A stretch of DNA of 64,000 nucleotides, taken from Odiellus spinosus. Taxonomy: Eukaryota > Arthropoda > Arachnida > Opiliones > Phalangiidae. Below are positions 16,688-21,235 of this stretch, piece by piece. Below the pieces are notes generated by a model. That model worked only from the letters and a program-made list of their open reading frames with translations, ran no database searches and had not been told where the DNA came from. A program made the translations under genes and the position numbers. Each line of letters starts with the position of its first letter. Within the stretch, counting starts at the first letter, position 1. Where the stretch lies: positions 15,998,501 to 16,062,500 of the forward strand of contig OY987226.1 of assembly GCA_963920705.1 (NCBI GenBank), read 5' to 3'.

Positions 16688-17163
16688 TAGAGCTCGGCGT
16701 TTGGACAAAATTATTCCTAAATAACGGTTAATCATTTATTTATGAATAAAAATCGATATTATTCAGTAAATTATTCGCGATAACATGCTTTTATCATAGG
16801 CTCCCCGTGGATAATTTCAAATTATGAATAAAGATAAAACCAAGGAGGATCAGAGAAGGAGAGGAAATGTGGGGCTGCGTTGAGTTAGAGAGAGAAGAGC
16901 CAACCTCCCACTCGGGTGGAAAGGGGGGATAGGAAATTCTCGAGGTAAACTGTTGTCACGTGGTCGCTAGCTAGCGCGTCTCATAAAGGATTCGTTTTAC
17001 CCACGCGACAACATTTTACCACGAAACGTCTCTACCCCCGTTCTCCCAGAGTGGGAGTTTAGGCCGACGCAGTAGGAACCGCACCGTCCCCACATTTCCT
17101 CTCCTTCTCTGATCCTCCTTGATAAAACAAACGGATATTTTCTTGTTCAAACGCCGAGCTCTA
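16688..17163. mobile_element. hAT-like MITE carrying the 281-bp element
   Basis: Ends TAGAGCTCGGCGTTTGGACA and TGTTCAAACGCCGAGCTCTA-type, related to 15522-15888. Flanks AATATCAT (16680-16687) and AATAGCAT (17164-17171) agree at 7 of 8. Without the insert at 16841-17121 and its duplication it would be about 188 bp. Confidence 0.85.
16841..17121. mobile_element. 281-bp MITE, 7-bp duplication ATAAAAC, copy 1
   Basis: Inverted ends CAAGGAGGATCAGAGAAGGA and TCCTTCTCTGATCCTCCTTG. ATAAAAC flanks at 16834-16840 and 17122-17128; the paralogous site near 15844-15850 has a single ATAAAAC. GC-rich relative to its surroundings, with a palindromic GCTAGCTAGC and a CACGTG near the centre. Confidence 0.92.
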
Positions 17164-17674
17164 AATAGCATGGTAGCTAGAAACGTTGAAACGGTTGTGT
17201 AATATCATTTTGTAAGTACTTTGTAAGAAAGTTAGAGCAATTTCCTGAATATTTTAGGGTCATGAAGTTATAAATGTATAATCAACTACAGAGAAGATTT
17301 AACCTTTCATTGGTAATAAAATAGAAAGGTTACTTCATCTCTATATTTTTCAGTCTCTATGCCCCTAAAAATATTCTGCGAACTTCCATAAAATATATTT
17401 AAAATTATGTCCCAATTCCATATTTAAATTGTCACGAAATACATAACGAAATATAAATATTCACGCCAACTAGTAGTTTGGTGGTATATTTCGAAAAAAT
17501 TCTGATATAGAAATGGCGTGCGATAATCTCATTGCATTTATGAACGCGAATCACGCGGAAAGGCGTGGGTGAATCAAACTACTCGTTAATAACATAAAAC
17601 CTAGCTCGCAGTCCATTTTTCTTGGGAAAGAAATCTCAGAAATGGCTAGAATTTCTGGAAAGCGGAGGTCATCA

Positions 17675-17790
17675 ATATATATATATATATATATATATAT
17701 ATATATATATATATATATATATATATATATATATATATATATATATATATATATATATATGTATATATATATATATATATATATATATAT
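17675..17790. repeat. (AT)n microsatellite, about 115 bp
   Basis: Continuous AT dinucleotides broken once by TGTA at about 17760. Confidence 0.97.
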
Positions 17791-19929
17791 AAAAGAATTC
17801 TAGATTAATATCCCACTAGTTCGCCATTCTAGTTACCCAACTGCCCAGATTTCCGGTCTCACTTTTAGAATGCAATTAGAAGAAAGGTATCTGGATCCCA
17901 ATTTTGAAAGGAATGACTCTTTAAATATAAGTTTCTATGCAGTAGCAAATTCCTTGTGGAAAATATCTTTTTTCTAGCGAGACGTGGGCGTTTTGTTCTA
18001 TCATCAACTATTGATACTAGTTCAAAGGTGTTAAACTACTTTTTGTCCCTATGGGGTCTAATATTGTGTATCAATCCGCCTAAGTTTTCTTAGTTTTATT
18101 AACACTAACTGAGCAATAGTATGAAGTCTTAAGAAGTTTTCACAAAGTGCTAAAAGGTTGCCAGAGCTGTGAGTTTTGCCATAATACTAAATGTTATATA
18201 CTCTTTTGAAAGCATCAAAAAGACCTAGATCATCATGGAAAAACCGACTTTGTAATGAAAATATACGTCCCTTGTGAGATTGAAACCGACTTTATTGATA
18301 TTTTTTAAAGTGACGCAGTGAGCATATTCTTTCTACGGTTTAGGGTTCATTTGTCTTTTCATATTATTAAAAAACTTTATTCCTTTGTTTGGCGCGTTTT
18401 TAAGAAACTTCCAAATTAATTTAACAATAAAAGCAAATTAATTTTTTTTTACTCTTGATGACGTATGTTTCCGGGACGTAACTAAAGATACACGTTTCAA
18501 ATGAAAGGTATATACTTCCCGGACTAAATATTTTCACCCATTTTTGCAACCATGCCATGAGAATCAAATATTGGCTCTGGTTTTTCTTTAGCCAAAGAAA
18601 ATGGGCCAGAAGACGTCTTCAAAACTTCTTCGGAAGCTCTTATGACATCTTATGCTCCTTAAGGGTGGTGTTTGAGAGATCTTTATGGGGTCGCGTGACA
18701 TCTTAGACAAACTTGTTTTTTTTTTTTTTTTTTTTTTTTGTCTGTTGTGTCAAACGTATGTAATTTAAATAGGTTTTTTTCCCGATCTTTCCGAAAACGC
18801 TACTCAAATCAAATAAGGAATGCCTACAAATTTCATGTGGCTCAGAGGAAACACGTTTTTCCAACATTCTACGTCATCAAATGGAAAAGTTTCTTTCTTT
18901 GGTAAAATTTAATATTCAATTAAATTTTTAAATTGAAAAGTAAAGCTGTTCTTTGACTGATACATGTCTAATTATGTTACATATATTCGCATTGAGAGAA
19001 TCAATCCAAGGTTTGGCCATACTAATGTAGTCTTTAAGCATTCTTATTCATTCACGAACTGCAAGGGCGAGATTAAACTATTTACATCGCCATTGCCCTG
19101 ATTAGGCCTTGGTTTCTATTTACTCTTAATTATAAGGTATTAAGCCAAATGTTACTTTCCTAATTAGCGAGGGAGGTTATCGCGAACTAATTAGTTGTCG
19201 ATACATCAAAGGGAACGAGAATAAGTATAATTAAAAAAAGTTTCTTTATAGAGAAGTTATTACGGGATTAATTTTGATTTAGCGAACATGCACTCCTATG
19301 GTTTGTTCCTTGGTTTCGTAGAGTTAATAACAAGAATCAATTTACTTCTCTAAGGAGAATCACAATACCTTTCTTCCGTTCGCGCTCGCAGTGGCCTAGT
19401 TTTTCACCCCCTTTACTCGATGGGGAGAAACGAAAGAGGCTAGTCTTACTTTCCCAACTGTTTTGTTATTTCCGCTCTTTAGTATTCGTCTGCTTAATTC
19501 GCTTAGTCTGCTAAGATTGTTAAGGCTGACTTAGGCCAAGGCTTAGTGTGGAAATGGTGAAAAACTAAACTACACTCCGTCTTCTCCGTTTCCAAAACTC
19601 TCAATTTCATGAAGGCAGTGTACAAGCCTGTACCTTTGACTGTACTAAAGTGAGTACTATTTTGCATTATCAAAAGCTGTAATCAGCTACGAAATCCCAT
19701 AACTGGCGTACAGATATTTCCGAAGCGTAACCGCAATTCTTACTGAAAACTAAACAAAGTCAGCAACCCTAGCAATTGTTAAGCCTTGGCCGGTTCCTTA
19801 AAACTCTTACAATTCACTCTATAAATTCAGTATACAGTTATTTTTCTTTCCAAACAAGATTTTTATTTTGAGCGTTGCATCTAAAGACTACCAAGTTCTA
19901 TGAAATTATTACAAAATCTCTTTTCATCA
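17791..19929. other. Gene-free stretch
   Basis: A poly(T) run of 24 bases ends at 18739. No conserved coding segment, RNA gene or shared repeat was recognised in about 2.1 kb. Confidence 0.5.
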
Positions 19930-20165
19930 GAAAGATACGAATTTTAAAAGTTTCAGCTTTATTTCGAAACTTTGAGATTAAATTATACTTGACCAATCAG
20001 GACGTTTTAATAATTTTCACGACGCGTGATAATAAAACTCTTGAAATCTATATTAATATTTACACGGAGAATCTTCTCTACAGCGCGTGAATTATCTAAA
20101 CGCCCTGATTGGTCAAGAAATTTCTAATATTAAAATTAAACATTAAAAATTCGTATCCAAGAAAA
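19930..20165. repeat. Foldback repeat, about 235 bp
   Basis: AGATACGAATTTTAAAAGTT then CTTGACCAATCAGGACGTTT on the left; AAACGCCCTGATTGGTCAAG then AAAAATTCGTATCC on the right. It covers the 71-codon frame at 19875-20090, which is therefore unlikely to be a gene. Confidence 0.7.
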
Positions 20166-20839
20166 AGCTATTTTGTTAAAATTTCAAGGGATTTGGTTTT
20201 TTTTTTTTTTATTTCTAGATCCCTTTACCATTTATTCTTAGCTTCAAACAACAAACCTTGAAAGGGTCTTAAATTCTGCGTATAGAACCGTGTTTTCTAT
20301 TGAAATTTCGATCCCTTTATAGGTTGTAGTTAAATATAGGTACCTATCAAGCTCATACTTCTTTCAAATTAATTGTTCTTTCCCCTTTTGCCTCACTTTT
20401 CCTCGCCTTGATATAAATCACAACTAACAGCAATTACTTCCGCTTCCTGTCTAGGGACTCTTTGTTATACCTTGACTCGCATCTGTTAGACGTCACAATA
20501 TGGGCTTCATATTTTCTTCCCCCAGACACTTGTACGATTTGATGTTCAGGCCCTGAGTAATTATGGACGGTAGAAGCGGTATTACATAAAAACATAACGA
20601 TACATAATTAAGACTAACATTTTTCTAATCGAAAGGTAATGACGAGCTAAAAATGGAACAGCTTTTGAATTTATTTTAAGAATATGCCGGCTTAGTTTTT
20701 AGGAGTCCATTTAATGCTTAATTAACGTTTTGCAGAAGTAAGACTTGAAGTAATACAGGTATAATTTCATACAAGACATCTAGACAAAACGTATTGCGTT
20801 AGATAGCATACATGAAAATTTGAAAGCCCTTGTAAAATC

Positions 20840-21235
20840 CCTTTCTTTCCTTGCTAAGCAGACGACGTTGACCATAACAAATTGTACAGTCAAAGCAAGA
20901 AGGATCAGATAAGGAGAGGAAAAGTGGGAACGGCGCGGCTCCTACTGCGTCGGCCTAAACTCCCACTCTGGGAGAACGGGGGGTAGAGATGCTTCGTGGT
21001 AAATTGTTGTCACGTGGGTATAACGAATCCTTTATGAGACGCGCTAGCTAGCGACCACGTGACAACAGTTTACCTCGAGAATTTCCTATCCCCCTTTCCA
21101 CCCGAGTGGGAGGTTGGCTCTTCTCTCTCTAACTCAACGCAGCCCCACTTTTCCTCTCCTTATCTGATCCTTCTTGGTCAAAGCTAGGGAAAAGAAAGAG
21201 AAAAGCTCTAGAGCAGATAGGGTCTTTAAACAGCA
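20840..21235. repeat. Family F repeat, split by the 281-bp element
   Basis: Reverse complement of 48565-48700: GACGTTGACCATAACAAATT before the insert and AGCTCTAGAGCAGATAGGGT then CTTTAAA after it. The 48-kb relative has one continuous CTAGCTTTGACTGTATAG, the unfilled site. Confidence 0.75.
20896..21176. mobile_element. 281-bp MITE, 7-bp duplication GTCAAAG, copy 2
   Basis: Exactly the same length as copy 1 but inverted. Ends CAAGAAGGATCAG and CTGATCCTTCTTG; GTCAAAG at 20889-20895 and 21177-21183. The few differences from copy 1 are paired between the two ends, so the termini still match each other. Confidence 0.92.

Follow-up and report, generated by a model that had tools for sequence, protein, structure and literature searches.

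A MITE family of Odiellus spinosus with 7-bp target duplications and a probable place in the P superfamily

Which enzyme moved two short insertions, each flanked by a repeat of seven bases, is the question raised by a stretch of 64,000 nucleotides from Odiellus spinosus (contig OY987226.1, positions 15,998,501 to 16,062,500), here called the window. Both insertions are copies of a miniature inverted-repeat transposable element (MITE), a non-autonomous DNA transposon recognised by its short length, high copy number, inverted ends, target duplications and lack of coding capacity. The family is a new one of an already known kind, and literature searches, including searches with the 13-mers of its ends (titles only), returned no description of it. 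It probably belongs to the P superfamily and, judging from the P families resident in the same genome, its mover would most likely be a P-type transposase.

The 7-bp target duplication

The two copies lie about 4 kb apart in opposite orientation, and each is accompanied by an older copy of its host repeat in which the target is still unfilled.

16841..17121, forward strand: MITE copy 1, 281 bp, a near-palindrome with ends CAAGGAGGATCAGAGAAGG... and the G-G-T end variant (positions 5, 15 and 28) on both sides
16834..16840 (left) and 17122..17128 (right): the two ATAAAAC repeats that flank copy 1, its target duplication
20896..21176, reverse strand: MITE copy 2, 281 bp, with the A-T-A variant at either end
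20889..20895 (left) and 21177..21183 (right): the two GTCAAAG repeats that flank copy 2
15722..15890, forward strand: older host-repeat copy, unfilled target of copy 1 (one ATAAAAC)
48578..48722, reverse strand: older host-repeat copy, unfilled target of copy 2 (one GTCAAAG)

Positions, lengths and orientations of the two copies are as the initial annotation gave them, and the perfect 7-bp flanking repeats that it reported are exact on both sides of each. The copies share 266 of 280 aligned bases (95%), with two 1-base gaps in addition. As two random 7-mers would agree with a chance of about 1e-4 at 35% G+C, and as nearly all sampled insertions of the family are flanked in the same way (below), the duplications in the window are not a chance agreement.

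The unfilled sites had been taken as proof of insertion, a claim that holds fully for copy 1 and less firmly for copy 2. With the element and one 7-mer taken out in silico and the joined flanks matched to the window, the emptied site of copy 1 aligns with 15722-15890 at 85% over 180 bp and extends 37 bp beyond the junction, which is good two-sided evidence. The emptied site of copy 2 aligns with 48722-48643 at 81% over 83 bp, reaching just 5 bp past the junction, with an extra colinear match of 22 bp (95%, 48599-48578) after a gap; this unfilled site is real, with weaker support on its right side. The host region of copy 1 (window 15542-17170) is itself built of diverged direct and inverted repeats, with matches of 85%, 76% and 68% on both strands.

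If one end base is reassigned to the target, copies 1 and 2 can each be read as having 8-bp duplications, in registers that differ. The length was therefore judged on a sample of 51 distinct insertions, all selected for recognisable ends rather than drawn genome-wide, and 39 of them on a single contig (C1). Entry to the sample required that both ends match, allowing up to 4 substitutions, within 700 bp, which excludes one-ended copies such as L071; where the start of a copy was ambiguous, the position giving the best 7-bp agreement was chosen, which matters for L009. Eight insertions come from BLAST places of copy 1 (copy 1 included), one from L005, one is window copy 2, 19 are from 30 end-pattern loci (several of which show one same element from its opposite end), 20 from a further set and two from L070. 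Exact 7-bp duplications flank 48 of the 51 (28 of 31 in an earlier pass), and exact 8-bp duplications flank none; two of the three exceptions mismatch at one base of seven and the third at three. Because the eighth flanking base is variable on either side across the 48 insertions (columns -4 and +4), the duplication is 7 bp long. In this sample the 7-bp reading thus withstands the refutation that the initial annotation had set for it, namely copies with mostly 8-bp duplications or none.

The 48 duplicated 7-mers are varied, and their consensus is palindromic about the central base: T at -6 (31/48), Y at -2 (47/48), R at +2 (44/48) and A at +6 (33/48). Within the duplication the preference is strong at positions 2 and 6 and weak at 1 and 7, with Y2 and R6 present together in 43 of the 48, and the symmetrised profile peaks at G-T-n-n-n-A-C (0.40, 0.64, 0.64, 0.40).

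Mariner elements duplicate TA, piggyBac elements TTAA, and PIF elements 3 bp; all three are rejected by the exact 7-bp duplications, which require neither TA nor TTAA. A MITE of the hAT superfamily with an unusual 7-bp stagger would account for ends that start with CA, as hAT ends do, and for the Y2/R6 preference, which resembles the hAT target nTnnnnAn (T second, A second from last). The hAT norm is an 8-bp duplication, which occurs in none of the 51 insertions, whereas the resident P families whose ends were located make 7 bp, and we regard a hAT origin as quite improbable. Both lengths have been published side by side in one study, which reports BuT4, a hAT insertion with 8 bp, beside 7-bp insertions of the P-superfamily element Galileo (PMC2775673).

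Dada, named in the initial annotation together with P as the nearest type, is described as making duplications of 6-7 bp (PMC3706591), and a Dada derivative would thus share this feature with the MITE. The snRNA-gene (small nuclear RNA) elements described there are without terminal inverted repeats and Dada targets are fixed sites in specific small-RNA genes (snRNA and transfer RNA), whereas the MITE has near-perfect inverted ends and varied targets, and no Rfam match reaches the gathering score in the window. A Dada derivation is accordingly a very remote prospect, and of the two types that had been named it is P that the data favour.

Anatomy and abundance of the family

The arms of the element are formed by bases 1-123, which pair with bases ~161-281 at 69-73% identity (BLAST of copy 1 against opposite-strand matches, itself included). 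The strand of copy 1 folds as a single hairpin of -154 kcal/mol, compared with -88 kcal/mol for shuffled sequences (standard deviation 5.0; z -13.1), and no open frame of at least 130 amino acids overlaps it. The near-palindrome, like the 7-bp stagger (in 48/51 of those sampled) and the target preference, is a direct observation.

Two length classes make up most of the sample, 281 bp (15/51) and 292 bp (16/51), with extremes of 210 and 631 bp. Pairwise identity among 29 aligned copies has a median of 94% (range 89-100%), and inverted ends are present in these copies, which were chosen for their ends. The ends vary at positions 5, 15 and 28, where the triplets A-T-A, G-G-T and A-C-A predominate, and the same triplet stands on both ends in 44 of 51 copies. 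Such matching can arise because the transposase prefers ends that match or because hairpin repair homogenises the arms, and offers a testable case of joint evolution of a MITE's two ends. The longest copy (L009:897-1527, 631 bp) carries two extra left halves of ~170 bp, arranged head to tail before one full element, and is still bounded by a single pair of 7-bp duplications.

A 27-bp end pattern (at most 3 mismatches) matches 4,776 times on the forward and 4,779 times on the reverse strand of the 443,074,358-bp genome, 9,555 ends in all; the reversed control pattern has no match across the same genome. The near-equal strand counts fit paired inverted ends, and the family therefore has roughly 4,800 copies, a number derived from these end-pattern counts. 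Four copies lie inside 3.6 kb on C1 (8001183-8004734), possibly as a local array or a duplicated segment.

Resident P families and the assignment of the MITE

Abundant in the same genome are genes for P-type transposases. PF21787, their N-terminal RNase-H domain, has 150 scored matches among 386 candidates in Odiellus spinosus and none in the 14 control genomes (0/14). These matches hold many more P families than the eight that were fetched with extended flanks. In four of the eight both ends could be located, and all seven of their insertions (7/7) have exact 7-bp duplications; ends visible on one side alone (L068, L080) were left out of this count.

Family with ends CGGTGCC...: TTTGAAG (L073), GTTTTAC (L074)
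Family with ends CATAGAC...: GTCTGTC (L069), GATGTAT (L072)
Family with ends CATGGAC...: ACTACAC (L075), GACCACC (L076)
Family with ends CGTTGCC...: GTTTATA (L083/L054/L084)

For L072, L075 and L076 the duplications were identified by eye in the flanking sequence; the others were also recovered by a scan that allows other lengths. L073 encodes an intact protein with THAP, PF21787 and PF21788 domains. Several P families have copies that share 96-100% identity across more than 2 kb, and among families with long open frames (L049-L051 and L053, L055/L057, L067/L068) copies from separate contigs agree at 99.9-100% over 3.3-3.4 kb. Near-identical long copies of this kind suggest that P elements were active here recently. 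Near the transposase domain of L043, L044 and L046, ~600 bp apparently align to their own reverse complement, possibly a foldback or hairpin insertion, and a few TTAGG-like repeats lie ~90 bp past the end of one P insertion (L082:1385-1430).

The resident P families resemble the MITE in having terminal inverted repeats that start with C, exact 7-bp duplications and partly similar targets, their seven duplications scoring on the MITE target profile above 19,943 of 20,000 random sets. They differ from it in carrying transposase genes, in their end sequences and in a DNA similarity that stays at chance level.

Outside this genome, 7-bp duplications in the P superfamily have already been published for Galileo of Drosophila, with which the MITE is compared here by published description. 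Galileo insertions are reported with 7-bp duplications and a palindromic consensus GTANTAC or GTATTAC (PMC4168063), and the MITE shares with them the duplication length and the GT...AC palindromic target, as well as an inverted-repeat, foldback-like build and short copies without a transposase. One such copy type is the transposase-free GalileoN-6, for which we take a length of 296 bp and a duplication of 7 bp from its row in the published table (PMC4168063, PMC2775673). The MITE has presumably different end sequences, a length of mostly 281 or 292 bp, thousands of copies and arms of ~120 bp at 69-73% identity, and membership in Galileo is not claimed. Three Galileo copies with 8 bp are reported from D. 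willistoni (PMC4168063), compared with 0/51 for the MITE. The same source gives 7- or 8-bp duplications as the range of the P superfamily and mostly 8-bp ones for the Drosophila P element, which would belong with the MITE to one superfamily and likewise has a palindromic target consensus, and differs from it in that length. Taken with Galileo, the resident families hint that 7 bp may be common across the P superfamily and not confined to a single lineage, which would help to place orphan MITEs flanked by 7-bp duplications.

Because P transposase genes are abundant here, four resident P families make 7-bp duplications and the target is GTnnnAC-like as in Galileo, P is the best-supported superfamily for the MITE. 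The superfamily, which had been left open, is thereby narrowed to P, and the part still missing is a transposase gene matched to the CAAGRAGGATCAG ends. In the mechanism that we propose, a P-type transposase (THAP plus RNase-H) encoded elsewhere would bind the near-identical inverted ends, excise the element and join it to a cut staggered by 7 bases. It would prefer GTnnnAC-like targets, most strongly their T and A, with a further T six bases before the centre and a further A six bases after it, and gap repair would leave the seven bases on either side.

The search for a transposase-bearing relative

Several results weigh against the P assignment, beginning with the targets. Y2/R6 is met by 3/7 P duplications compared with 43/48 of the MITE, and the match to the motif is partial, the full RYnnnRY being present in 14/48 MITE and 2/7 P duplications where chance gives 1 in 16. 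Complementary pairs within single sites are no commoner than the columns predict (28 insertions), and the palindrome thus belongs to the consensus. The outer preferences, T at position -6 and A at position +6, also differ from the published AANGT...ACNTT of Galileo. Among the resident families, L085-L088 (open frames of 672, 929, 885 and 703 amino acids) show no ends in the stretches fetched, and the inverted repeat seen inside L086 has no convincing duplication beside it.

The remaining points on this side concern the missing gene. Neither pattern searches of the genome nor scans of P loci found a transposase gene between CAAGRAGGATCAG ends. At 30 P loci there are no paired MITE ends, and three loci have a single unpaired match with 2/13 mismatches; in seven further P stretches and in L085-L088 MITE ends are absent. 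A 24-base scan for MITE ends (at most 7 mismatches) in 45 P stretches gives six weak single matches, most scanned P loci being covered to ~1.5 kb on either side of the transposase domain. BLAST of both window copies against the P loci gives DNA similarity at chance level only.

A longer relative was also sought through the 21-bp end stretch followed, ten bases on, by letters other than those of the MITE, a pattern that passes about one random continuation in ten and occurs at three places in the whole genome. With one of these places shown and two judged to be altered MITEs, a donor would share a longer arm with the MITE, have diverged ends, fail the pattern or be gone. The place in L070 (1890) is a MITE that has been shortened and rearranged and is flanked by a 7-bp duplication of its own, and the places on C12 and C13 look, from the matched letters only, like MITEs with insertions or deletions. 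Likewise rejected was L071, the sole place with the 13-bp start, another continuation and GTGG close by: its left arm is that of a diverged MITE and its right end was not recognised.

That these pattern searches and P-locus scans found no transposase acting on the MITE ends would suit a superfamily not yet described, with a stagger of strictly 7 bp and a transposase that has so far gone unrecognised. Since this genome is rich in P transposases that share the stagger, a new enzyme need not be invoked, and we hold such a superfamily to be unlikely. Little probability is also left for a broader alternative, in which the mover would either come from such an undescribed superfamily, distinct from P, hAT and Dada, or be a P transposase whose own element has unrelated ends, the MITE being cross-mobilised and its matched ends maintained by hairpin repair. 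Membership in the P superfamily is the reading that we retain.

Elsewhere in the window, 50541-51056 and 53531-53971 hold exons of a kinesin-associated protein (KAP, PF05804).
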